Virus record (IMG/VR): IMGVR_UViG_3300040801_002780
Span: 1 to 31,747 of that record
DNA from: a virus
Reading direction: 5' to 3' (one strand)
Length of the DNA stretch: 31,747 nt
How positions within the stretch are numbered: position 1 is the first letter of the stretch; each line of letters begins with the position of its first letter. Of this stretch, positions 5,700 to 31,269 are shown in pieces. The position numbers and the translations under genes were made by a program. Below the pieces are notes generated by a model, which did no database searches, was not told the DNA's origin, and was given only the letters and a program-made list of their open reading frames with translations.

Positions 5700-8034
5700 T
5701 CGTAGTTTAGATAAAATTGCGAAAGGCTTTGACGGTATTCGACGTTCTAGTGCTCGTACTGCTAATGCCCTTGAAAAATTTGACCGTATCTTTTCCAGAC
5801 TTGCAAGCTTTACTATTGCAGGAGTAGGTATTACTTCTATCGTAGGAGTAGCCGACAGTCTCCAATTATTACGTGACCGTATTAGAGTGTTTGAAGGTGA
5901 CCGAGCAGACGAAACATTTCTTAGGCTAGGTGAAGTAGCTAACTTTACTAGAACAAGTATTGATAACATTGCAGAGTCCTATAACAGACTAGCATTATCT
6001 ACTAAAGACCTGGGGCTTAACAGTGAAGCTTTACTTGGACTAACTACTGCACTCCAACAATCATTTCGTTTATCAGGTGCTAGTATTGCAGAAGCAAATG
6101 CAGCTACGATACAGCTATCTCAAGGTTTAGCTTCGGGACAATTACGTGGTCAAGAATTAAGATCGGTATTAGAGCAAAACGCCGTTATCGGTGAAATACT
6201 TGCTGACACTTTCGACACTGCTAGAGGTAACTTAATTAAGTTTGCTGAAAGTGGAGAGATTACTTCACAAGTTGTTTTACGTGCGCTTGCTGATAATGCA
6301 CAAAGATTAAACGATGAAGCAGAAAAACTAGGTCAAACTTTTGGACAAACGGTGACTCGTGCTGTAAACGACGCTAAGATACAATTTGCTGAACTAAATA
6401 AAACTGTGGGACTAAACTCTTTGTTTCAAAAAGGAGTGGAGGCTTTAGTAAATAACCTAGACACACTTGCTGCACTTCTAGCAGGAGCAGTGATTACTAA
6501 AGCAGTGTTCGCTTTAGGTACTGCCTTTACCTCACTATCGGGAGGTATAACTCTTACCAATATTGCCCTGGGTATTTTACAATCTCAACTACTCGGCACT
6601 CTAGTAGCCTTAGCAGTTAACCCTGTTACCGCTTTTGCAGTAGCTTTAGGTACTTTGGCTGCAGCTACCGTATTACTTATAACTAACTGGGAACGCCTTG
6701 GTTTTTTAGTTGGGGGTAGCATTTTAATTATTTTTAAAGGTGCTGTTGACGGATTGAAAAATATTGTTGATGGCATAAGAGATTTTATATCTAGTATTCC
6801 AGGAGTACCAGAAGCTATAACTAGGGCTTTAGATAATATAAGTTCGAGGTTTGGCAGAAACTCAGCTACTTTAGAACGAGGTATAATAAGGTTTGCAGAG
6901 GCACAGAATAAGGTAGAAGAAAGTACTAACGGCACTGCAGATGCCCAACGTAAGTATATCCAAGAACTATTAAAAGCCTCCCAAAACGTACAAAACACAG
7001 GAAATGCTTCAAGTAATTTCGCTGCTCAGTTGGGAGAGCTAAACCAAAAATATAATAAAGGTATTCTTAGTTTACAGCAATACAACGCAGCAGTTCAAGG
7101 ATTAGAGCTAGGCAGACTTAACGAACAGTTCAATAAGGGTCAAGTAAATTTAGACCAATACAATCAAAGACTCGATAGAATAACTGGCGGTGCTATTCCT
7201 AAACTAAATAAGCAGTTGGAGCAAGGTCAAATTGACCTTATCGAATATAACGAAAAACTTAGAGAAATAGATTTTGAAAGAGTTAAGCGTGGTTTTGAGC
7301 AAGGCACTGTAAGTGCTATCGAATTTAACTCGGCACTTATTAAGACTCAAGAACAGTTCAGTGCCGACGGTGCTTTATTTCAAGGAACTAACCAATTTAT
7401 CCAAAGCGCAGGAACACTTGCCTCCAATATTGCTGACGCAGTAGAGAATACCTTTAACAGGCTAGAGGACTCTTTAGTTGATTTTGTTAACACAGGTAAG
7501 TTTGAGTTTAGACAATTCACTAACGCAATACTTCAAGATTTATTGAGAATTATTATTCGACAAAACATTGTACGAGGGCTTGCTAGTGGTTTAGGTAGTG
7601 CGTTCGGAGGTTCTAGTGGGGGTTCGGGAATAGACGGAGGTTTTACTGGCCCTCCTGCTGCAGCTAACGGTGCTTCATTCATTGGGCAAAATGCTACGTT
7701 CTTCGCAAATGGAGGCGTAGTAGATAGAACTACTGCTTTTGGTTTCGGAAATAATCAAACTGGTATTATGGGAGAAGCTGGCCCAGAAGCAATACTCCCT
7801 CTACGTCGTGGTGCTAATGGCGATCTTGGAGTTCAAGCACAACCTTCGAACGTGAACATTAACATTGTTAACAACTCTAACGATACTGAGATTACTCAGC
7901 AAGAAAGAACTGACGAGTCGGGTAACCGTACAATAGATTTATTTATTGAAAATAAAGTAAGAGACTCTATAGCTAATGGCGGTCTTGACCGAGCTTTTAA
8001 ACAGAGTTTCGGACTTGAAAGACGAGGACTATAA
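5647..8034 (+). CDS. Tape measure protein
   Basis: 795 aa. Residues about 75-190 match the tape-measure N-terminal domain (IAESYNRLAL, then LTTALQQSFRLSGAS, then GLASGQLRGQELRSVLEQ). Residues about 270-370 are hydrophobic, with likely membrane-inserting helices. Between about 470 and 570 four short repeats follow the pattern (F/Y/L)(N/E)(K/Q)G(x)5(Y/F)N, which resemble SHOCT-like segments. The C-terminus has the gpH-like FVNTGKFEFRQFTNAILQ motif and GEAGPEAILPLRRG. By the usual rule of about 1.5 angstrom per residue the tail would be near 120 nm. The first codons are ATGATG; either may start. The start lies inside the frameshifted chaperone frame. Confidence 0.95.
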   Translation: MMATETRRIVVELQSKGNRSLDKIAKGFDGIRRSSARTANALEKFDRIFSRLASFTIAGVGITSIVGVADSLQLLRDRIRVFEGDRADETFLRLGEVANFTRTSIDNIAESYNRLALSTKDLGLNSEALLGLTTALQQSFRLSGASIAEANAATIQLSQGLASGQLRGQELRSVLEQNAVIGEILADTFDTARGNLIKFAESGEITSQVVLRALADNAQRLNDEAEKLGQTFGQTVTRAVNDAKIQFAELNKTVGLNSLFQKGVEALVNNLDTLAALLAGAVITKAVFALGTAFTSLSGGITLTNIALGILQSQLLGTLVALAVNPVTAFAVALGTLAAATVLLITNWERLGFLVGGSILIIFKGAVDGLKNIVDGIRDFISSIPGVPEAITRALDNISSRFGRNSATLERGIIRFAEAQNKVEESTNGTADAQRKYIQELLKASQNVQNTGNASSNFAAQLGELNQKYNKGILSLQQYNAAVQGLELGRLNEQFNKGQVNLDQYNQRLDRITGGAIPKLNKQLEQGQIDLIEYNEKLREIDFERVKRGFEQGTVSAIEFNSALIKTQEQFSADGALFQGTNQFIQSAGTLASNIADAVENTFNRLEDSLVDFVNTGKFEFRQFTNAILQDLLRIIIRQNIVRGLASGLGSAFGGSSGGSGIDGGFTGPPAAANGASFIGQNATFFANGGVVDRTTAFGFGNNQTGIMGEAGPEAILPLRRGANGDLGVQAQPSNVNINIVNNSNDTEITQQERTDESGNRTIDLFIENKVRDSIANGGLDRAFKQSFGLERRGL

Positions 8035-20255: not shown

Positions 20256-22274
20256 ATGAAAACGAAATTTTGTTACTTGGATTTTGAGTTTAACAAGACT
20301 CAGGAAGAATTGTTAAACCTTGTATGTTCCTCACACATGGTAGGAAGTGAAGTCACTAATTTATGGCTACACAAAAACTATCAGGACAACCACACACATT
20401 TAAAAAACGAACTGCTACGTTTAAAAAACGAAGGCTATGTTTTTCTAGCATGGCAGGTAGTAGCAGAAGCTAGGTCAATATACTCACTAGGTCTTAATCC
20501 AATGGACTTTGAGTTTATTGACCTTATGCTTGAATACCGTTGCATAGCTAATCACAATGATAAGTTAATGTATGGCAATCAACTCGTTAAAGGTAAAATT
20601 AAAAAAACTAGAAGACCTCCTCCTAAATGGGAGAGAACAGAGAAAGACGTAAAGTTATCTTTTAAACCTACTCACTCACTAGCGGAAGCTACTTATAAAC
20701 TTACAGGTGAAATTAGGGATACTGAACATAAAGAACTAATGCGTGACCTAATAATTAGTACACCTGACGGATTTAAAAGGTCAGAAAAAGAAGCTATCAT
20801 GCTTTACTGTGAAGAAGACGTAATTCATTTACCTAAAATTCACCACGCGATTCTTAATTGGTATCGTAAACTTCTTAAAAGTAAAATTAACGAAGAAGAA
20901 CTTCAAGAAGAAATGTTATACCGTGGAAAATATGCTGCACTTACTGCAATAAGAGAGTCAAAAGGTTATCCGATTGACTACGAAAAAACTAAAGCTTTTA
21001 GTAGACAAGTACCGCTTATTATTGAAGAGTGCCAAAGAGATATTAATTCTCAGTTCCCTAATACCTTCCGATACAAAAATGGTAAGTACACTTGGAATCA
21101 AAGCCTTACTAGGGAGAGGGTAGGGGGTATCATTGACCCTAAAAAGTGGCCAAAGACTGAAACTGGAAATCTATCACTGGCTAGGGACTCATTTTCAAAG
21201 CATGCCCCTTACCGACATTCTTATCCAAGAAATAATTTTCTCGCTCAAATGTTAAGATACTTAAAATTAAAACAATCAATGAACGGTTTTGTATCTAGCA
21301 AAAAGAAAAATTTTTGGGACTCAGTAGGTAGTGATGGGAGAGTTAGGCCCTATATGAACATATACGGTAGTCAAACTAGTAGAAGTCAACCTGGTAGTAC
21401 TGCATTTATCCCACTTAAACCTGCTTGGCAGAGAAGTTTAATTTATCCTAAGAAAGGTAAGGCAATAGCAGGTCTTGATTATGGTAGTGAAGAGTTTTTT
21501 ATTTCAGCTTTACTTAGTAAAGATAAAAATATGATCGACGCTTATTTATCGGGAGACGTTTATTTAGCTTTTGCTAAAGACGCAGGACTAGTACCAAAAG
21601 ACGGTACAAAAAAGAAATACAAAAAAGAACGTGATCTTTGTAAAGCTACTGTTCTAGGTATGAGTTATGACATGACTAAGTTTGGTTTGGCCAAAGACCT
21701 AGAAGCAAAAACAGGAAGACCTTGGACTCCTGACGAAGCTCAAGTCTATATTGATCTTTTTGAAAATGCTTATCCTACATTTATGGAGTTTAAAAGAAAT
21801 GTTCAATTTACTTATCAAGAGGATAGCCGACTACAGCTATGTGACGGTTGGTATTTGTTTGGGGATAACGATAACTCTCGTAGTGTCGGAAATTTCCCTA
21901 TACAAGGCATGGGTGCGGCAATCATGCGAAAAGCAGACTTTTTATGTTACGAAGCAGACTTATATGTACCTTTCACTCTCCATGATGCTCTTTATATTGA
22001 GTTTGATAGCGATTGCTTCGGAGCTATTGATAAAGCAATAACACAAATGAGAGAAGCTTTTGCTTATTTTTTCGAGGAAGAAGTTCAAGACCTAGCAAGA
22101 CAAATTAGAATTGATTGTGAAGTATGGAGTCCTGACTACACTAAAGGTGAAAAGGTAACTACTCCAGGTGGAGTAGAGTTACACTTAGAGGACATACATA
22201 TTGATGAACGTGCAATTGAAGAGTATGAAAAATTTAAAAAGTATTTTGACGACTCTGACTTGGAGTTATTTTGA
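20256..22274 (+). CDS. Family A DNA polymerase with 3'-5' exonuclease
   Basis: 672 aa. Exo I is YLDFEF (Asp9, Glu11) and Exo III is YCEEDV (Tyr184, Asp188); the usual Exo II residues are hard to place. Motif A is AGLDYGSEE (Asp408). Motif B is RDLCKATVLGMSYDM: Arg459, Lys463, Tyr471, with Leu467 where E. coli Pol I has Phe762 and Asp472 for the usual Gly. Motif C is LHDAL (Asp577), with Ala replacing the usual Glu. No 5'-3' exonuclease domain, as in T7-like replicative enzymes. It heads the replication operon; a weak AGGCG precedes the ATG. The stop overlaps the methyltransferase start. Confidence 0.95.
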   Translation: MKTKFCYLDFEFNKTQEELLNLVCSSHMVGSEVTNLWLHKNYQDNHTHLKNELLRLKNEGYVFLAWQVVAEARSIYSLGLNPMDFEFIDLMLEYRCIANHNDKLMYGNQLVKGKIKKTRRPPPKWERTEKDVKLSFKPTHSLAEATYKLTGEIRDTEHKELMRDLIISTPDGFKRSEKEAIMLYCEEDVIHLPKIHHAILNWYRKLLKSKINEEELQEEMLYRGKYAALTAIRESKGYPIDYEKTKAFSRQVPLIIEECQRDINSQFPNTFRYKNGKYTWNQSLTRERVGGIIDPKKWPKTETGNLSLARDSFSKHAPYRHSYPRNNFLAQMLRYLKLKQSMNGFVSSKKKNFWDSVGSDGRVRPYMNIYGSQTSRSQPGSTAFIPLKPAWQRSLIYPKKGKAIAGLDYGSEEFFISALLSKDKNMIDAYLSGDVYLAFAKDAGLVPKDGTKKKYKKERDLCKATVLGMSYDMTKFGLAKDLEAKTGRPWTPDEAQVYIDLFENAYPTFMEFKRNVQFTYQEDSRLQLCDGWYLFGDNDNSRSVGNFPIQGMGAAIMRKADFLCYEADLYVPFTLHDALYIEFDSDCFGAIDKAITQMREAFAYFFEEEVQDLARQIRIDCEVWSPDYTKGEKVTTPGGVELHLEDIHIDERAIEEYEKFKKYFDDSDLELF

Positions 22275-23230
22275 AAGTACTAAGTTTATTTGATGGCATT
22301 AGCGGTGGACAAGTAGCACTTGAACGAGCAGGGTTACCTATTGAAAAATACTACGCAAGTGAAATAGATAGACATGCTATTACTGTTACTCAAAAAAACT
22401 ACCCTAAAACCATTCAACTAGGTAGCGTTACTGAAGTTGACGGAAATAAATTTAAGAGTATTGATCTTTTAATTGGTGGTAGTCCTTGCCAAGGCTTTAG
22501 TTTTGCAGGTAAGCAATTAAACTTCGACGACCCTCGCAGTAAATTATTCTTTGAGTACGTTAGAATTTTAAAAGAAGCTAAACCTGAATATTTTCTTCTT
22601 GAAAATGTAAAAATGAAAAAACAATACCAGGACATAATAACTGAACACCTGGCAGTAGAACCTATTGCTATAAATAGCGCACTTCTTTCAGCACAAAACA
22701 GACAAAGACTTTACTGGACAAACATACCTGAAGTATCTATTCCTGCAGACAAGGGAATAGTTTTAAAAGATATAATAGAAGGAGAGTTTGAAGACCTTAT
22801 CAATTACTCTTCTAGTGGTAGAGGTAATGGAGTAGTAGAAGGACGTTGTTATATTTCTACAAATAAAAAAGCCAATGCACTTACTAAAACAGGTTACTCT
22901 AAACGTGCCTTCACTGGAGTAATTCAACTTAACGATAGTAATGAGTCCCAGGGTAGACAACCTTACCAACAAAACCGTATTTATAGTGTAGATGGCAAGT
23001 CACCTTGTCTTAATGCTGACGGTGCTAGAAGACTTAACATTTTTGATGAGAGTGAAGTTCGTAAACTAACTCCAGTAGAATGTGAAAGACTTCAAACATT
23101 CCCTGATAATTTCACAAGTTCAATAAGTAATAATCAAAGATACAAAGCATTGGGTAACAGCTTCACAGTTGATGTGATAGCTCACATATTAAAACACATA
23201 ACCTATGCCTCATACGAGGACATTTTTTAA
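22271..23230 (+). CDS. C5 cytosine DNA methyltransferase
   Basis: 319 aa starting at TTG (TTGA overlap with the polymerase stop; TTGGAG lies 5 bases before). All key motifs are present: motif I SLFDGISGGQVAL, motif IV GGSPCQGFS with nucleophile Cys73, motif VI ENV (111-113), motif VIII QNRQRLYW (142-149), motif IX RKLTPVECERLQTFP and motif X ALGNSF. It methylates carbon 5 of cytosine in a sequence set by the region about 160-260, which is not predictable by eye. No restriction enzyme lies beside it, so it is an orphan, probably protecting phage DNA from host restriction or marking it. Confidence 0.95.
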   Translation: MKVLSLFDGISGGQVALERAGLPIEKYYASEIDRHAITVTQKNYPKTIQLGSVTEVDGNKFKSIDLLIGGSPCQGFSFAGKQLNFDDPRSKLFFEYVRILKEAKPEYFLLENVKMKKQYQDIITEHLAVEPIAINSALLSAQNRQRLYWTNIPEVSIPADKGIVLKDIIEGEFEDLINYSSSGRGNGVVEGRCYISTNKKANALTKTGYSKRAFTGVIQLNDSNESQGRQPYQQNRIYSVDGKSPCLNADGARRLNIFDESEVRKLTPVECERLQTFPDNFTSSISNNQRYKALGNSFTVDVIAHILKHITYASYEDIF

Positions 23231-27006: not shown

Positions 27007-27183
27007 TTACTTGTGCCTTTTGTTTTGGTAACAGTCACAGCAAATTTTATGTACGGTAGTCGCATCTATTGCTACGTTATATCCTGCAGGAGTTTCTTGT
27101 GCCTTATTACAGCACCTACAAATGTAATAAACGGTAGCTTCTTTATCGACGTTCTTAAATGAAATGTTCTCTGTGCTACTCAT
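27007..27183 (-). CDS. 58-aa Cys-rich protein, putative zinc finger
   Basis: Start chosen at 27183 (MSSTENISF), which overlaps the stop of the upstream lipoprotein gene (TAATG on this strand); longer versions run into that gene. Cys22, Cys24, Cys25 and Cys48, Cys49, Cys51 give two CxxC knuckles about 22 residues apart, enough for one zinc ion. The C-terminus is basic (NKRHK). Small zinc-ribbon proteins in phages often bind DNA or host RNA polymerase, but nothing here proves that. Confidence 0.6.
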   Translation of the reverse strand: MSSTENISFKNVDKEATVYYICRCCNKAQETPAGYNVAIDATTVHKICCDCYQNKRHK

Positions 27184-27491
27184 TACTTTACCCTCGCAGT
27201 ACTGTGAGCAATTTTTGGAGTACATTTACTAAACCAACGTACTCCATACTGGTCACTCCAGATTTTACATGCGTACTTCTCAGGGCCACAATTAAAACCG
27301 TAAATAGCTCCTGTTACATTACCGAACAAGTCCTTATAGGTATTGATGTGAACCATGTCTACTAGTGGTTCAGTACAGGCAGTTTCGTTGGCAAAACGGT
27401 TCTTCCAGTAAGCTGTCTTCTGTTCGTTTGTCATAGTAGCGCAGGAAGTAGAAAAGATAGCGAGTAAAATTAGTACAATTAAATCTCTCAT
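27183..27491 (-). CDS. Small secreted lipoprotein, candidate surface exclusion protein
   Basis: 102 aa. The N-terminus MRDLIVLILLAIFSTSCATM is a lipoprotein signal with Cys17 as the lipidated residue; the lipobox is S-T-S-C, with Ser in place of the usual Leu at -3. The mature part has four cysteines (39, 68, 75, 90), enough for two disulfides. AGGAGA lies 6-11 bases before the ATG, and an extended -10 promoter precedes it. Isolated, with its own promoter and opposite to its neighbours, it fits a phage lytic- or lysogenic-conversion gene such as the T5 Llp type that blocks receptors; no sequence similarity to Llp is claimed. Confidence 0.65.
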   Translation of the reverse strand: MRDLIVLILLAIFSTSCATMTNEQKTAYWKNRFANETACTEPLVDMVHINTYKDLFGNVTGAIYGFNCGPEKYACKIWSDQYGVRWFSKCTPKIAHSTARVK

Positions 27492-27511
27492 AGTTGTTCT
27501 CCTAGTTATGC

Positions 27512-27529
27512 GTATATTATAACATATAC
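27512..27529 (-). promoter_or_regulatory. Extended -10 promoter with palindromic operator
   Basis: Reading leftward, TGTTATAAT is a perfect extended -10 (TGnTATAAT), with TATAAT at 27521-27516 and the lipoprotein ATG 25 bases further on. No good -35 is seen 16-18 bases upstream, which extended -10 promoters do not need. The promoter lies within an 18-bp inverted repeat with perfect half-sites GTATAT and ATATAC (27512-27529), a plausible repressor site. Confidence 0.55.
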
Positions 27530-27555
27530 TAGGGGGGTCACTTCCACAGATTGTA

Positions 27556-27584
27556 AAAATTTTAAGGGGGCGGTTTTATCCCGC
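27556..27584 (-). terminator. Weak hairpin-T terminator candidate
   Basis: Reading leftward, GCGG-gataaaa-CCGC is followed by CCCCTTAAAATTTTT. The stem has only four base pairs and the stop codon of the small membrane protein gene lies in the loop. It may end that transcript before the lipoprotein promoter. Weak evidence. Confidence 0.25.
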
Positions 27585-27743
27585 GTACGAGTATAGGCGG
27601 TAAAGCACTGAACTTATTATGATTAGGGCAAATATACAGGCTATTGTTTCCTCATATTTCTCCAGAAATAGGTCAAACTTATCTAGCTTCTTTTCCAGAA
27701 ACTCATCAACTTTTTCTATCAATCTGCCAACTTTTTCGTGCAT
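27576..27743 (-). CDS. 55-aa membrane protein with N-terminal coiled coil
   Basis: Start chosen at 27743 (MHEKVGRLIEK) because TAGGAATAGT precedes this ATG; an upstream in-frame start at 27776 lacks a site. Residues 4-33 form a charged heptad-like helix and residues about 34-50 (TIACIFALIIISSVLY) one membrane segment, giving a tail-anchored protein with the helix probably in the cytoplasm. A frame on the opposite strand (27619-27819) has no ribosome site and looks like a shadow. Function unknown; possibly with the neighbouring lipoprotein a conversion/exclusion module. Confidence 0.5.
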   Translation of the reverse strand: MHEKVGRLIEKVDEFLEKKLDKFDLFLEKYEETIACIFALIIISSVLYRLYSYAG

Positions 27744-28091
27744 ACTATTCCTATATTTATACGAAAATTGTTTCAATAAATATTGTGATTGTCATGGTAA
27801 ATTTGTGGTGATTAAGTAAGAAGGCCAGAAGTATTTCATGGAGAAAATCTAAATTTTTGTAGCGAGTTAACTAACTAGGAAAACCCTGTATGTGCCTTAA
27901 AAATTTTCTTCTGACCTATTGGAGAGTATAGGGTATTTTTCGATTTTTTCCTATAGGTAAGATAAAAACTTAAATTTTTTCTATCGAACAATGGTTTATC
28001 GAATATTATAAAAAAGTCGTTTCGGCTAAGTGTTGGAAATTAAAAGATTTTTGAATTTTTTAAAATTGAGGTCAATTGATTTTATCGAGTG

Positions 28092-28236
28092 TAGGCTTAA
28101 CTACCTGGAATTAAAAGCAATTTGTAAACGCCCGAAATTACTAAAATAGCTTTTCAAGTGTTTTTAAAGTTGAGATTTTAGCTATTTAGATAAAATTCAA
28201 CTTTTAGCTTTTAGGCCTAAGGTAGTTAGGGCCTTT
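28092..28236. repeat. Large nested inverted repeat (multi-stem structure)
   Basis: The outer arms are AGGCTTAACTACCT (28093-28106 region) and AGGTAGTTAGGGCCT (28220-28234). They pair over about 14 positions with one G-U and one bulged base. Inside lie AAAGTTGA-g-ATTTTA (28166-28180) with TAAAATTCAACTTT (28191-28204), a 14-bp stem with one bulge and a 10-base loop, and the alternative pair AAATAGCT (28144-28151) / AGCTATTT (28180-28187). TTAGGCCTAA (28211-28220) is a perfect palindrome. The arrangement resembles a branched RNA or a replication-control site. Confidence 0.6.
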
Positions 28237-28237
28237 T

Positions 28238-28276
28238 ATTACTTAGTTGATGGGAAATAACAACGTACTAAGTAAT
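28238..28276. repeat. 10-bp perfect inverted repeat
   Basis: ATTACTTAGT (28238-28247) and ACTAAGTAAT (28267-28276) are perfectly complementary with 19 bases between. It lies directly after the large nested structure. The preceding GGGCCTTTT is similar to the right arm and T-run of the terminators found at 31.0 and 31.25 kb. Confidence 0.6.
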
Positions 28277-28297
28277 AAATAAACATTAAATAAAATC

Positions 28298-28354
28298 TAG
28301 TTAAAAGGCCTATTGATAAAAACATGACTTAAAATCAAAAGGCCTAAATAACTA
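28298..28354. repeat. Hairpin A with conserved 16-nt loop
   Basis: GGCCTATTGAT (28307-28317) pairs with ATCAAAAGGCC (28334-28344) at 10 of 11 positions. Past a small internal loop TAGTTA (28298) pairs with TAACTA (28349). The loop 28318-28333 is AAAAACATGACTTAAA, identical to that of hairpin B, and contains ATG ACT TAA. Its first ten bases equal the start regions of downstream genes (AAAAACATGA). Confidence 0.7.
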
Positions 28355-28361
28355 ACAACAA

Positions 28362-28395
28362 AATAAGTTTAAAAACATGACTTAAAAAACTTATT
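28362..28395. repeat. Hairpin B with conserved 16-nt loop
   Basis: AATAAGTTT (28362-28370) pairs perfectly with AAACTTATT (28387-28395). The loop 28371-28386 is AAAAACATGACTTAAA, the same 16 bases as hairpin A, although the stems are unrelated. Loop conserved and stem not is the mark of a loop-recognised RNA element. Confidence 0.7.
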
Positions 28396-28433
28396 AAAAT
28401 TTCATTCAACTTCTAAACTATCGAAATTATCTA

Positions 28434-28453
28434 AATAATATAAGTTTATTATT
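28434..28453. repeat. 7-bp perfect inverted repeat
   Basis: AATAATA and TATTATT flank a TAAGTT loop. All A/T apart from the loop, so it may arise by chance in this DNA, but it continues the run of hairpins at 28.09-28.45 kb. Confidence 0.4.
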
Positions 28454-28497
28454 CAGGTACTATTTAAGTAATACTAAAAAATTCAATTTTTCAATGA

Positions 28498-28542
28498 TTT
28501 TAGGCGGTTATGAGGACAAAATTAAAAGCAATTTAGGCGGTT
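28498..28542. repeat. Direct repeats, iteron- or operator-like
   Basis: TTTAGGCGGTT occurs at 28498-28508 and again at 28532-28542, 34 bases apart, about three helical turns. Between them AATTAAAAGCAATTT (28520-28534) repeats exactly a 15-mer found at 28109-28123. GC-containing repeats stand out in this AT-rich stretch. They lie just upstream of the probable promoter for the rightward operon. Confidence 0.45.
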
Positions 28543-28557
28543 TTTAGAGAATAATTA

Positions 28558-28586
28558 TTGCAGTGAGTCACTTTTAGCATTAATAT
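28558..28586 (+). promoter_or_regulatory. Candidate promoter for the rightward small-gene operon
   Basis: TTGCAG (28558-28563) and TAATAT (28581-28586) are separated by 17 bases and lie about 36 bases before the first ATG. Both boxes deviate from consensus (3 of 6 and 4 of 6). An alternative -10 TATAGT at 28584 lacks a matching -35. Confidence 0.35.
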
Positions 28587-28604
28587 AGTAAATAACTCAA
28601 GTAC

Positions 28605-28624
28605 TAACAAAGGATAAAAACATG
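28605..28624 (+). promoter_or_regulatory. Conserved translation leader, first of six
   Basis: TAACAAAGGATAAAAACATG occurs exactly at 28605-28624, 28866-28885 and 30230-30249. It recurs with one change at 30546-30565 (A for C before ATG), and as TAACAAAGGATAATAAAATG at 30727-30746 and 31043-31062. AAAGGA is the Shine-Dalgarno part, but identity covers the whole spacer, beyond what ribosome binding needs. The first copy is flanked by AGTACT on both sides (28600-28605 and 28627-28632), which could enclose it in a hairpin loop. Confidence 0.75.
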
Positions 28625-28861
28625 ACAGTACTAAATTACAATGAACTTAAAAGAGAATTTAAAGAGATTGATCGACGTATTAGAAGACAATCGCAAGTCA
28701 GTGACGTACTAGACAGCGAAAAGGCACTAATTGAAAAGAGAATTAAGGAACGTACTAAGGATAATTTTACAGGAATTTACTGTAACAAAGGCCAAGGGCA
28801 ATTATTTAATTTAATAGTGTTCTCATTTTTAGGCCTAACTTATTTATCATTTTTCGCTTAA
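28622..28861 (+). CDS. Small protein with C-terminal membrane segment
   Basis: 79 aa, first gene after the structured region, with the shared leader. Residues 6-45 are a charged helix (ELKREFKEIDRRIRRQSQV), and residues about 60-78 (LFNLIVFSFLGLTYLSFF) one hydrophobic helix, so it may be tail-anchored in the membrane. No family recognised. Possibly co-transcribed with the PcfJ-like gene 21 bases downstream. Confidence 0.6.
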   Translation: MTVLNYNELKREFKEIDRRIRRQSQVSDVLDSEKALIEKRIKERTKDNFTGIYCNKGQGQLFNLIVFSFLGLTYLSFFA

Positions 28862-28882
28862 TAACTAACAAAGGATAAAAAC

Positions 28883-30232
28883 ATGAAATTACTAGTAACT
28901 AAAAACACTTATAAGAGAACTAACTGCGAATTGACTTTTAGCAGTGACTTAAAAGAGGCCAAGGCCTACGGTTATGCCTGGTTTAAATACTTGCATACTG
29001 ACAAAGTAGGAAACTTAATACTTAGTGAGTATTCAAGTATGACAAGTAAAAGCCACATAGGCGATATTGAAAATAAATTAAAAGCACATAATAAAAAAAT
29101 AGCTTTAAGGTTAGATTTTATTAATTATTTTAGTAATTCTTTCAATAAAACTATTCACGTATTTAATGGTAGGTATTCGCATTATGGTCACAATTTAGGC
29201 GATATTAACAATGCAATTGAGGCCGAAATAAGACTAATAAAAGAACATATTTTAAGAATAATTGAAAAAATAAAAACACCACGTACTCATAAAACTAAAA
29301 ACGAGAAACGTAAAAATGAAATTAAGTATTGTATTAGACGTATTAAAGATATTAGATTTTTCCGAGATAATTACTTGGATAAAAAACTTAAAAAACTACC
29401 GTACGATATTTCGAGATACCAACAATTTTTTGGGTATGACTATGCTTTTACTGCAGTGCAAGGCGATGAGGACTTAAAAACACAAAATAAAAATGAAAAT
29501 ACTAATTTAGTTCTAAAAGTTTTTAAAGATATTTACGGTAAATACTTAAAAGTAAATGAAAATAGGCTAAATTATTATTTTAAAAATTTTAAAATACCAC
29601 GTGCAACACTATACACTGATAATGGTATTGGTACTAAGGGAATACCGTTAGAACTAGATAAACTTAATAAACTGTTAGGCCTAAATTGTAATTTCGATTA
29701 TTCTAAAATTGTTTTTTATGATCATATTAGAGATATTGAGTCCTCAATACCAAGTGACATTGATTCGATTGAATATTTAGAACTTTTAAAAGTTATTAAA
29801 AGACTAAAAATAACTAAGGATAATTTGAATACATTACAGCTTGATAGACTTCACACGGCCTTAATTAATAAAGCTAACCGTGCAATGAACGACGATAAAA
29901 CGCCTAAAATTTGGCCTCAATATCAAGTTAATGAAACGCTATTAAAAATCGAGCAACTAACTAGTAATGACGATAAACTAGACTTCTACGCTATTAAAGA
30001 TCAAGGCCAGCTTAGAAAAGAGTCAAGGATAATGAAACACTGTATAGGTCAGGCACGTATGCATTACCATGATAAAATTCTACGTGAAAATTATCAAGCA
30101 TGTAATTTCCAAGGTTATACGTTCTATTTATCGCCTAGCTTAGAAGTACTTCAGACTAACGGTAAACATAATGCAAGTACACCTAGTAATGTAATAGATG
30201 CGCTTGAAACGCTACTTTTACAAGTAGCCTAA
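28883..30232 (+). CDS. PcfJ-like domain protein
   Basis: 449 aa. The C-terminal 90 residues carry the PcfJ-like pattern: GQLRKESRIMKHCIGQA (MKHCIG at 384-389), then a strand-rich part ending LEVLQTNGKHNASTP, like the M-x-HCVG core and Q-x-x-G-x-x-N-x-x-P end of that family. PcfJ is known from conjugative plasmids and related domains occur in phages and plasmids; the biochemical role is not settled. The N-terminal 350 residues are basic and helical without a recognised domain. The gene is much richer in A and T than the phage structural genes. Its TAA forms the first bases of the next leader. Replication initiation is possible but has no direct support. Confidence 0.65.
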   Translation: MKLLVTKNTYKRTNCELTFSSDLKEAKAYGYAWFKYLHTDKVGNLILSEYSSMTSKSHIGDIENKLKAHNKKIALRLDFINYFSNSFNKTIHVFNGRYSHYGHNLGDINNAIEAEIRLIKEHILRIIEKIKTPRTHKTKNEKRKNEIKYCIRRIKDIRFFRDNYLDKKLKKLPYDISRYQQFFGYDYAFTAVQGDEDLKTQNKNENTNLVLKVFKDIYGKYLKVNENRLNYYFKNFKIPRATLYTDNGIGTKGIPLELDKLNKLLGLNCNFDYSKIVFYDHIRDIESSIPSDIDSIEYLELLKVIKRLKITKDNLNTLQLDRLHTALINKANRAMNDDKTPKIWPQYQVNETLLKIEQLTSNDDKLDFYAIKDQGQLRKESRIMKHCIGQARMHYHDKILRENYQACNFQGYTFYLSPSLEVLQTNGKHNASTPSNVIDALETLLLQVA

Positions 30233-30246
30233 CAAAGGATAAAAAC

Positions 30247-30537
30247 ATGATTCAAAATGTAACTAAAAACTATTTTCACGATCAATTTAATTCAATTAGG
30301 CCCGATAATTTTAGCTATGAGGGACTAAATACTCTTTACGATTATTTAGTAGAGCTTGAGGAGTCTTGCGATATGCAAATAGAACTAGACGTAATTGCAA
30401 TTTGTGGTGATTTTTCAGAGTATAAAATTGATGAGGCTTTAGAATATTATCAGGCCGACGATATCGACGAACTAAAACATAACACTTCTGTGATTGAAAT
30501 ACCCAATACCGAACGTATTATTTTACAGTGCTATTAA
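30247..30537 (+). CDS. Small acidic conserved-type phage/plasmid protein
   Basis: 96 aa. The patterns NFSYEGLNTLYDYLVELEE, IELDVIAICGDFSEY and a closing VIEIPNTERIILQCY resemble a small acidic protein family common in phages and plasmids of diverse bacteria, always short and without known function. Strongly acidic, with no signal or membrane part. Read from the shared leader, 14 bases after the PcfJ-like gene. Acidic small proteins are sometimes DNA mimics or antirestriction factors, which is only a thought here. Confidence 0.65.
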   Translation: MIQNVTKNYFHDQFNSIRPDNFSYEGLNTLYDYLVELEESCDMQIELDVIAICGDFSEYKIDEALEYYQADDIDELKHNTSVIEIPNTERIILQCY

Positions 30538-30562
30538 TAACTAATTAACAAAGGATAAAAAA

Positions 30563-30739
30563 ATGAAACATATTAAATTAAATAATTTTAAAAGACAGGA
30601 AAAAAAACTTTTAAAAATTACTAGTATTAAGCTTAGGCCCGATCAACTTACTTTTATTAAAGATAATGAGGTGAATTTAAGTCAATTAGTTAGGGCCTTG
30701 CTTGATAACTTTATTAAAAAAACTAATAACAAAGGATAA
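30563..30739 (+). CDS. Ribbon-helix-helix transcription regulator
   Basis: 58 aa. After a basic N-terminus, TSIKLRPDQ is the beta ribbon, LTFIKDNE helix A, VNLSQ the turn, and LVRALLDNFIKK helix B: the classic MetJ/Arc/CopG layout with N-L-S at the turn and an Arg in helix B. Such proteins bind palindromic operators as dimers, control plasmid copy number, partition or phage genes. Its stop is formed by the leader of the next gene (GGATAA). The 3' end of this gene is copied at 31004-31062. Candidate targets are the repeats at 28.5 kb or 27.5 kb. Confidence 0.75.
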   Translation: MKHIKLNNFKRQEKKLLKITSIKLRPDQLTFIKDNEVNLSQLVRALLDNFIKKTNNKG

Positions 30740-30746
30740 TAAAATG
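30690..30746 (+). repeat. Direct repeat copy 1: RHH gene 3' end plus leader
   Basis: 57 bases from TTAGGGCCTT in the RHH coding region through the leader to the next ATG. The sequence is repeated at 31004-31062, differing only in the length of an A-run (7 here, 9 there). Confidence 0.85.
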
Positions 30747-30965
30747 AAAAATAGATTAAAAAGAATTTCAGATAATGGTGACGTAATAACTATTTTTAAA
30801 TCTAAAAATAAAAATGAAGTCTTAGAGTACATGCAATGGATACTCGAAAATAATACGTTTCAATGTACTTATAAGAAAATAACTTATATTGACGGCTCTA
30901 AAGGATACATAAAGACTAAAAATAATGGTGCTATAATTCAATATAAGTTAGAACTAGCAGACTAA
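30744..30965 (+). CDS. Small basic protein of unknown function
   Basis: 73 aa, start set by the shared leader (an upstream TTG frame would run through the repeat). MKNRLKRISDNGDVITIF, a helix NEVLEYMQWILENN and strands CTYKKITYI and AIIQYKLEL suggest a small alpha/beta fold. Basic; no family recognised. It lies between the two copies of the duplicated segment and is followed by a hairpin terminator. Confidence 0.55.
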   Translation: MKNRLKRISDNGDVITIFKSKNKNEVLEYMQWILENNTFQCTYKKITYIDGSKGYIKTKNNGAIIQYKLELAD

Positions 30966-30968
30966 TAG

Positions 30969-31013
30969 CACTACTAAATTAAGCACCAATAAAAGGCCCT
31001 ATTTTAGGGCCTT
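30969..31013 (+). repeat. Trailer repeat copy 1
   Basis: 45 bases after the 73-aa gene, ending in a terminator hairpin. The same 45 bases with two changes occur at 31223-31267 after the 53-aa gene. Together with the leader repeats this shows a duplicated unit with different centres. Confidence 0.85.
30993..31013 (+). terminator. Hairpin terminator
   Basis: AAGGCCCTA, loop TTT, TAGGGCCTT: a perfect 9-bp stem. The T-run is short because the duplicated RHH segment begins at its right arm (sequence continues GCTTG), so it may be weaker than the copy at 31245. Confidence 0.6.
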
Positions 31014-31062
31014 GCTTGATAACTTTATTAAAAAAAAACTAATAACAAAGGATAATAAAATG
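31004..31062 (+). repeat. Direct repeat copy 2: RHH gene remnant plus leader
   Basis: 59 bases matching 30690-30746 with two extra As in the A-run. The RHH codons for the C-terminal helix (ALLDNFIKK) are still readable but the end is frameshifted. Its first 10 bases are also the right arm of the terminator at 30993-31013, marking the recombination joint. Confidence 0.85.
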
Positions 31063-31221
31063 ATTTTCAAAGGATATATAAAGCATAATAAAAATAGAAA
31101 AATTAATAGGGAAAAATTAGAAAAATTTTTAAAAGTTATGGAAAATTTCGAAATACGTGTTATGCATAATACCTTAGTAAAAGAGAGATATCGAAAAATT
31201 TACGGTAAAAGTTGGAAATAA
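31060..31221 (+). CDS. Small basic protein of unknown function
   Basis: 53 aa from ATG 31060, right after the second copy of the AATAAAATG-type leader; the longer in-frame reading from 31012 is RHH remnant. Rich in Lys, Arg and Asn, with a helix REKLEKFLKVMENF. No similarity by eye to the 73-aa protein that has the same flanks. Ends before a strong terminator. Confidence 0.55.
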   Translation: MIFKGYIKHNKNRKINREKLEKFLKVMENFEIRVMHNTLVKERYRKIYGKSWK

Positions 31222-31244
31222 ACACTACTACATTAAGCACTAAT

Positions 31245-31269
31245 AAAAGGCCCTATTTTAGGGCCTTTT
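31245..31269. terminator. Bidirectional rho-independent terminator
   Basis: AAAAGGCCCTA, loop TTT, TAGGGCCTTTT: a perfect 11-bp stem with A- and T-runs on both sides, so it can work in both directions. It lies between the rightward 53-aa gene and the end of the leftward gene, whose stop codon is inside it. Confidence 0.8.

Follow-up and report, generated by a model that had tools for sequence, protein, structure and literature searches.

Two Phage Hairpins with Unrelated Stems and an Identical Loop Matching Operon Gene Starts, within a Predicted Structured Element

Why should two neighboring hairpins in a phage genome differ throughout their stems yet present exactly the same 16-nt loop? The locus that raises this question belongs to IMG/VR record IMGVR_UViG_3300040801_002780, a partial genome that was analyzed as one stretch of 31,747 nt (31.7 kb), hereafter called the window. 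Its genes form a siphovirus-like set whose products include tail tube, tape measure, and tip proteins, a DNA polymerase of family A, a C5 cytosine methylase, and a helicase, and its G+C content, 36% overall, is 28% in the right end from position 27500. The hairpins lie in an ORF-poor, non-coding stretch of about 800 bp (27% G+C) between divergent genes, flanked on one side by small minus-strand ORFs, the last reaching up to 27776, and on the other by a plus-strand operon that begins at 28622 (Table 1). Two of the minus-strand ORFs adjoin the structured element described below, one lipoprotein-like (27183-27491) and the other with coiled-coil and membrane character (27576-27776), and both are possibly lysis genes. 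Across the whole window, CCGG does not occur at all (about 21 expected) and GGCC occurs 68 times against 34 expected, a twofold excess; beside these departures stands the phage-encoded C5 cytosine methylase, at 22271-23230.

The initial annotation described hairpin A, with arms at 28307-28317/28334-28344 (10 of 11 positions paired), and hairpin B, with arms at 28362-28370/28387-28395 (9 of 9), around an identical loop, and these coordinates and pairings are right as given. The stem assigned to A is its inner part, but the full hairpin is longer, with arms of the form TAGTTA..AGGCCT.TTGAT / ATCAA.AGGCCT...TAACTA. The stems were said to be unrelated, and indeed those of A and B have no more in common than chance would give, apart from one T-A pair; because this pair closes both loops, the identical stretch amounts to 18 nt. 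Given the repeated loop, the per-site chance of pairing is about 2e-5 for B (9/9) and 5e-5 for A (10/11), and the joint chance of both stems is about 1e-9. The RNA fold of 28296-28396 has z scores of -6.1 on the plus strand and -5.0 on the minus strand, with none of 400 shuffles as stable. All 16 loop bases are identical and the stems, although unrelated, are paired, indicating, as had been proposed, that the loop is more important than the stems. If A and B share one ancestral hairpin, their sequences would imply that nearly every pair was replaced on both sides and the loop left entirely intact. Kissing between the two loops through CATG was considered and rejected as too weak (-3.4 kcal/mol).

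Table 1. Positions of the predicted structural features and of the downstream genes in the window.
Feature	Position	Strand	Description
Whole structured element	28051-28486	+ (inferred)	About 436 nt; closed by a perfect 12-bp helix, 28051-28062/28475-28486
Branched domain upstream of A and B	28078-28297	+	Helices P2, P3, P4, and P5; hairpins D and C
Hairpin D	28167-28203	+	Pair probability 0.92 in the full plus-strand fold, 0.57 in one shorter context
Hairpin C	28235-28279	+	13 perfect pairs; 19-nt loop TGATGGGAAATAACAACGT; pair probability 0.97
Hairpin A	28298-28354	+	17 Watson-Crick pairs; loop AAAAACATGACTTAAA
Loop of A	28318-28333	+	Putative start mimic with mini-ORF ATG ACT TAA; GATAAAAACATGAC, 14-nt identity with the gene 1 start
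Hairpin B	28362-28395	+	9 pairs (9/9); loop AAAAACATGACTTAAA
Loop of B	28371-28386	+	Identical 16 nt, also with ATG ACT TAA
Small hairpin E	28429-28458	+	Within the element, in the predicted fold
Gene 1 start module	28605-28625	+	TAACAAAGGATAAAAACATGA; has GATAAAAACATGAC in common with hairpin A
Gene 1	28622-28861	+	79 aa; coiled-coil-like N terminus, hydrophobic C terminus
Gene 2	28883-30232	+	449 aa; PcfJ-like; operon start module; Pfam PF14284, E 4e-6, above cut-off
Gene 3	30247-30537	+	96 aa; operon start module; phrog_9974, E 1.4e-12
Genes 4 to 6	30563-31221	+	58, 73, and 53 aa; variant start modules AACAAAGGATAA(A/T)AAAATGA

Even with one mismatch allowed, the window has no third occurrence of the loop sequence. 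A survey of 474 kb of phage DNA yielded 428 hairpins, and no other pair spaced by 1 kb or less combined a long identical loop with different stems. The only other set of identical loops among these hairpins, at 6700-6813 of an unrelated viral contig, has repeated stems too, forming a tandem palindrome array of CTAGGCCTAG-AATAACCCTAAAGGAC in which stems and loops are both repeated. The 16-mer has 31 matches in IMG/VR, none of them in a clear hairpin, and none of the papers listed in a literature search for tandem hairpins with identical loops describes such a design. Blastn against phages and plasmids, scans of viral and genome collections for the two-loop pattern, and searches with start-module patterns and the PcfJ-like protein found no homologue of the element in the phage, plasmid, viral-contig, and genome-contig collections covered, from which records very close to the window may be missing. 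There is thus no between-genome covariation, and the sole covariation signal at hand is that between A and B, two copies inside one genome. Two loci with a repeated core but no matching stems (L048, from a Clostridia MAG, and L079) were judged coincidental; in the former, AAACATGACTTAA occurs twice at 1413-1463, between two ORFs on the minus strand. The non-coding region is absent from the polymerase relatives examined, which are distant. A structured gap in a distant relative (G004, 31400-32000) is unrelated in sequence; it has 28% G+C and a fold z of -7 on the minus strand and is built of ATAAATTTTACAC- and TATAGAC-type repeats.

What the loop resembles becomes apparent from the operon downstream. 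All six operon genes (28605-31063) begin with a start module, AACAAAGGATAAnAAnATGA, and the operon has a strong Shine-Dalgarno sequence, AAAGGA, at fixed spacing; the leaders of the other genes in the window are varied. Hairpin A has 14 nt (GATAAAAACATGAC) in common with the start of gene 1 and 13 nt (GATAAAAACATGA) with those of genes 2 and 3, the matches to GATAAAAACATGA(C) lying at 28616, 28877, and 30241. The identity of the loop with the start regions of three downstream genes had been noted over ten bases, and it is both correct and longer than that. Gene starts outside the operon have at most 10 nt in common with the whole element. Shuffling the region 300 times produced a common word of at least 14 nt twice, making the link between loops and gene starts suggestive, not overwhelming (the 1% level when taken alone), and it gains some weight from the fact that both loops match in one register around the ATG. 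Each loop consists of an A-rich tract, AUG, A, and then a stop, with the identity extending through the stop codon, and is without a Shine-Dalgarno sequence.

Two further predicted pairings involve the start of gene 1. A 6-bp stem (AGTACT/AGTACT) at the start of gene 1 was considered as a third hairpin of this kind and rejected as expected by chance. The 9-nt segment ATTGTCATG at 27788-27796 is predicted to pair with CATGACAGT at the gene 1 start (probability 0.76); CATGAC, present in both loops, is another potential partner.

Gene 1 of the operon has only weak PHROG matches (hemolysin and Rz-like spanin), and no relative of the PcfJ-like product of gene 2 was found in viral contigs, phages, or plasmids. 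Gene 4 (30563-30739, 58 aa) has the look of a ribbon-helix-helix protein, with a weak match to CcdA, and is a possible regulator of the operon.

The two hairpins had been presented as a pair, and both are predicted to form on the plus strand; they are not, however, a free-standing unit, being two arms of a larger predicted element of 436 nt. The element has fold z scores of -7.95 (plus strand) and -8.11 (minus strand), with none of 150 shuffles as stable on either strand, values that are somewhat inflated because the limits were picked from the fold itself; a windowed fold scan run before the limits were set gave the same peak. Its ends are sharp, with z scores of -0.53 in the left flank (27745-28050) and -0.35 in the right (28487-28640). 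The branched domain has z scores of -5.9 (plus) and -6.7 (minus), and its predicted helices mostly have probabilities of 0.85 to 0.99 in the longer contexts. The terminal inverted repeats of 12 bp could be read as transposon-like, a reading that was rejected as there is no target-site duplication.

Fold energy is equally strong on both strands, so that energy alone does not tell the strand, but the predicted display of the loops differs. On the plus strand, hairpin A has a pair probability of 0.92 to 0.98 in all contexts and hairpin B one of 0.76 to 0.90 in six of seven (0.42 in the other); both loop cores are 0.87 to 0.96 unpaired in six of seven contexts, with B at 0.63 in the seventh. On the minus strand, hairpin B forms in two shorter contexts (0.93 and 0.70) and is replaced by an alternative pairing in the other five, including all the longer ones (0.03 to 0.14), where the openness of its loop falls to about 0.4. 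Because only the plus strand reliably displays both loops together, prediction favors a plus-strand RNA. The initial annotation had also suggested an antisense-type loop. For a plus-strand RNA this is ruled out, because the loop is identical and not complementary to the gene starts, and it is conceivable only for a minus-strand transcript; overall, that interpretation of the locus is partly supported.

What the DNA shows directly is that the loops are repeated, that inverted repeats and start modules are present, and that loops and modules match; the larger fold is a computed prediction. Beyond these, we infer transcription, its strand, a ligand, and a direction of regulation. The reading that we prefer, and hold only tentatively, is that 28051-28486 may be a structured plus-strand RNA with loops that imitate the operon starts and bind a ligand in common with them. 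Such an RNA would form the operon's 5' leader or, alternatively, a noncoding RNA of its own directly before the operon and in the same direction, and A and B would be two copies of one functional unit, in which differing stems keep one 16-nt loop open. The loops would act as start-module mimics from which the Shine-Dalgarno sequence has been left out and, since they mimic the module, a ligand that reads the module would bind the loops too. By analogy, the most likely ligand would be a RegA-like translational regulator, a protein acting as T4 RegA does on A-rich AUG regions. With such a ligand, the two loops would bind the regulator with high affinity and either titrate it or report its level, and repression of genes 1 to 3 would be relieved or set.

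The main RNA rival is an antisense transcript from the minus strand, in which loops of UUUAAGUCAUGUUUUU would pair with UAAAAACAUGA(C) of genes 1 to 3 and block initiation, the presence of two loops providing redundancy as in leader-complementary phage and satellite RNAs. Of the duplexes predicted for 33 starts, those at gene 1 (-14.2 kcal/mol) and gene 3 (-13.4 kcal/mol) are the most stable, and that at gene 2 (-10.8 kcal/mol) is tied for third. There are also precedents: the PLE IIR transcript, which lies between inverted repeats, as this element likewise does, and has antisense homology to several ORF leaders (PMC7567579); the P1, P4, and N15 RNAs cited in the same paper; and LhrC, with its redundant loop sites (PMC4132741). 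The pairing, however, is A-U rich and leaves the Shine-Dalgarno sequence uncovered, no convincing minus-strand promoter or terminator is found close to the element, and the minus-strand fold in longer contexts is predicted to lose hairpin B and much of the opening of its loop; we regard this reading as improbable. Consensus promoters in general do not exceed their frequency in shuffled sequence. It is less probable still that the loops are two-codon minigenes, each translated as AUG ACU UAA, on which ribosomes would act in cis on the operon or release peptidyl-tRNA. In both loops, ATG ACT TAA does follow the start context that the operon itself uses, with identity through the stop, and an identical minigene (ATGactTAA) is translated in the txe toxin leader, where it regulates in cis (PMC8708949). 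Against this, B is without a Shine-Dalgarno sequence, the AAAAGG of A is about 15 nt from the AUG and lies in a paired arm, the operon itself has its strong AAAGGA at fixed spacing, and the loops are some 240 to 300 nt from gene 1, compared with 15 nt for txe.

Two further readings do without an RNA function. The locus could act as DNA, either as a replication origin or single-stranded hairpin element or as paired operators for a DNA-binding protein, for which the ribbon-helix-helix-like product of gene 4 is a candidate. Its placement in a long AT-rich non-coding stretch between divergent genes would suit such a role, as would the stability of the hairpins under DNA parameters (fold z of -4.15 over 28260-28410), the equal z scores of the two strands, the complete lack of G-U pairs in stems A, B, and C, and the spacing of the loops at 53 bp, or five helical turns. 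Binding to double-stranded DNA does not account for the stems, however, the match of the loops to plus-strand gene starts is left without explanation, and the cumulative GC skew has no clear turning point at the element; we regard this as improbable. The hairpins could instead be by-products, relics of duplicated start modules made palindromic by template switching and without function. The operon has been subject to duplication, with terminator-like hairpins (AAGGCCCTATTTTAGGGCCTT) repeated at 30969-31013 and 31223-31267 and a gene end plus start module at 30690-30747 and 31004-31063, which suggests recent cassette duplication at common GGCC words, and AATAACTAACAA occurs at both 28347 and 28859, a likeness between the DNA near B and another gene leader. 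On the other side, the two palindromes are in register with each other about a loop that has not changed, and the fold spans 436 nt; we regard an origin as a by-product as unlikely.

Where would a plus-strand RNA of this kind stand among known systems? The sites of T4 RegA are A+U rich, contain an AUG and a 5' poly(A) tract, are unstructured, and occur at many early gene starts (PMC3014915). The loop is likewise A+U rich and predicted to be open, with an AUG and a 5' poly(A) tract, and an A+U-rich unstructured AUG site (GATAAAAACATGA) occurs at genes 1 to 3, with a related module at genes 4 to 6. RegA sites, in contrast, are at the genes themselves and not in paired upstream hairpins (PMC3014915), and since the RegA protein family (PF01818) has no match in the window, which is a partial genome, or in five distant relatives, the resemblance that we propose is one of working and not of membership. 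Cluster K mycobacteriophages have a short repeated module, SAS/ESAS, at the starts of non-structural genes, a repetition long noted without its function being known (PMC3203893). Like SAS, the module described here is repeated at translation starts, in this case at six of six operon genes, and inverted repeats accompany part of the SAS modules (PMC3203893). SAS, however, is GGGATAGGAGCCC, unlike the module here, and ESAS has conserved 17-bp inverted repeats with a variable spacer (PMC3203893), whereas the present hairpins have variable stems and a fixed loop.

The PLE IIR and the P1, P4, and N15 RNAs are, like the RNA proposed here, structured or repeat-bounded noncoding RNAs matched to several ORF leaders, although they are antisense to those leaders (PMC7567579), whereas the better-formed strand here is sense. 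Leader-complementary RNAs (PLE IIR, P4 CI, and P1 c4) are transcripts complementary to gene leaders; at this locus the minus-strand loops are complementary to the starts of genes 1 to 3, but hairpin B is predicted not to form on that strand in the longer contexts. Minigene mg2 of axe-txe has an identical ATG ACT TAA in a leader; unlike the loops, which lie in hairpins hundreds of nucleotides off, it has a Shine-Dalgarno sequence and lies 15 nt from its gene (PMC8708949). Long, strongly folded noncoding stretches are also known from phages as GOLLD and ROOL (PMC12286853) and as the ICP1 transcript of about 800 nt (PMC7567579). The element differs from these in that it is a predicted RNA for which no relatives were found, with no tRNA near it and no Rfam match at gathering score across the window; over 27480-28640, Rfam matches with E values up to 10 were at chance level. 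We regard the element as akin to start-associated modules, RegA-like sites, and large phage RNAs and as a member of none.

It is doubtful, though conceivable, that the element stands for a new class, a phage noncoding RNA of about 436 nt in which paired hairpins are decoys of an operon start module, such that one RNA would tune several genes by competing for the reader of that module. If the plus-strand reading is true, the phage would control a cluster of small genes through sense-strand copies of their start sites held in hairpin loops, which may suggest why some phages repeat one start module before many genes.
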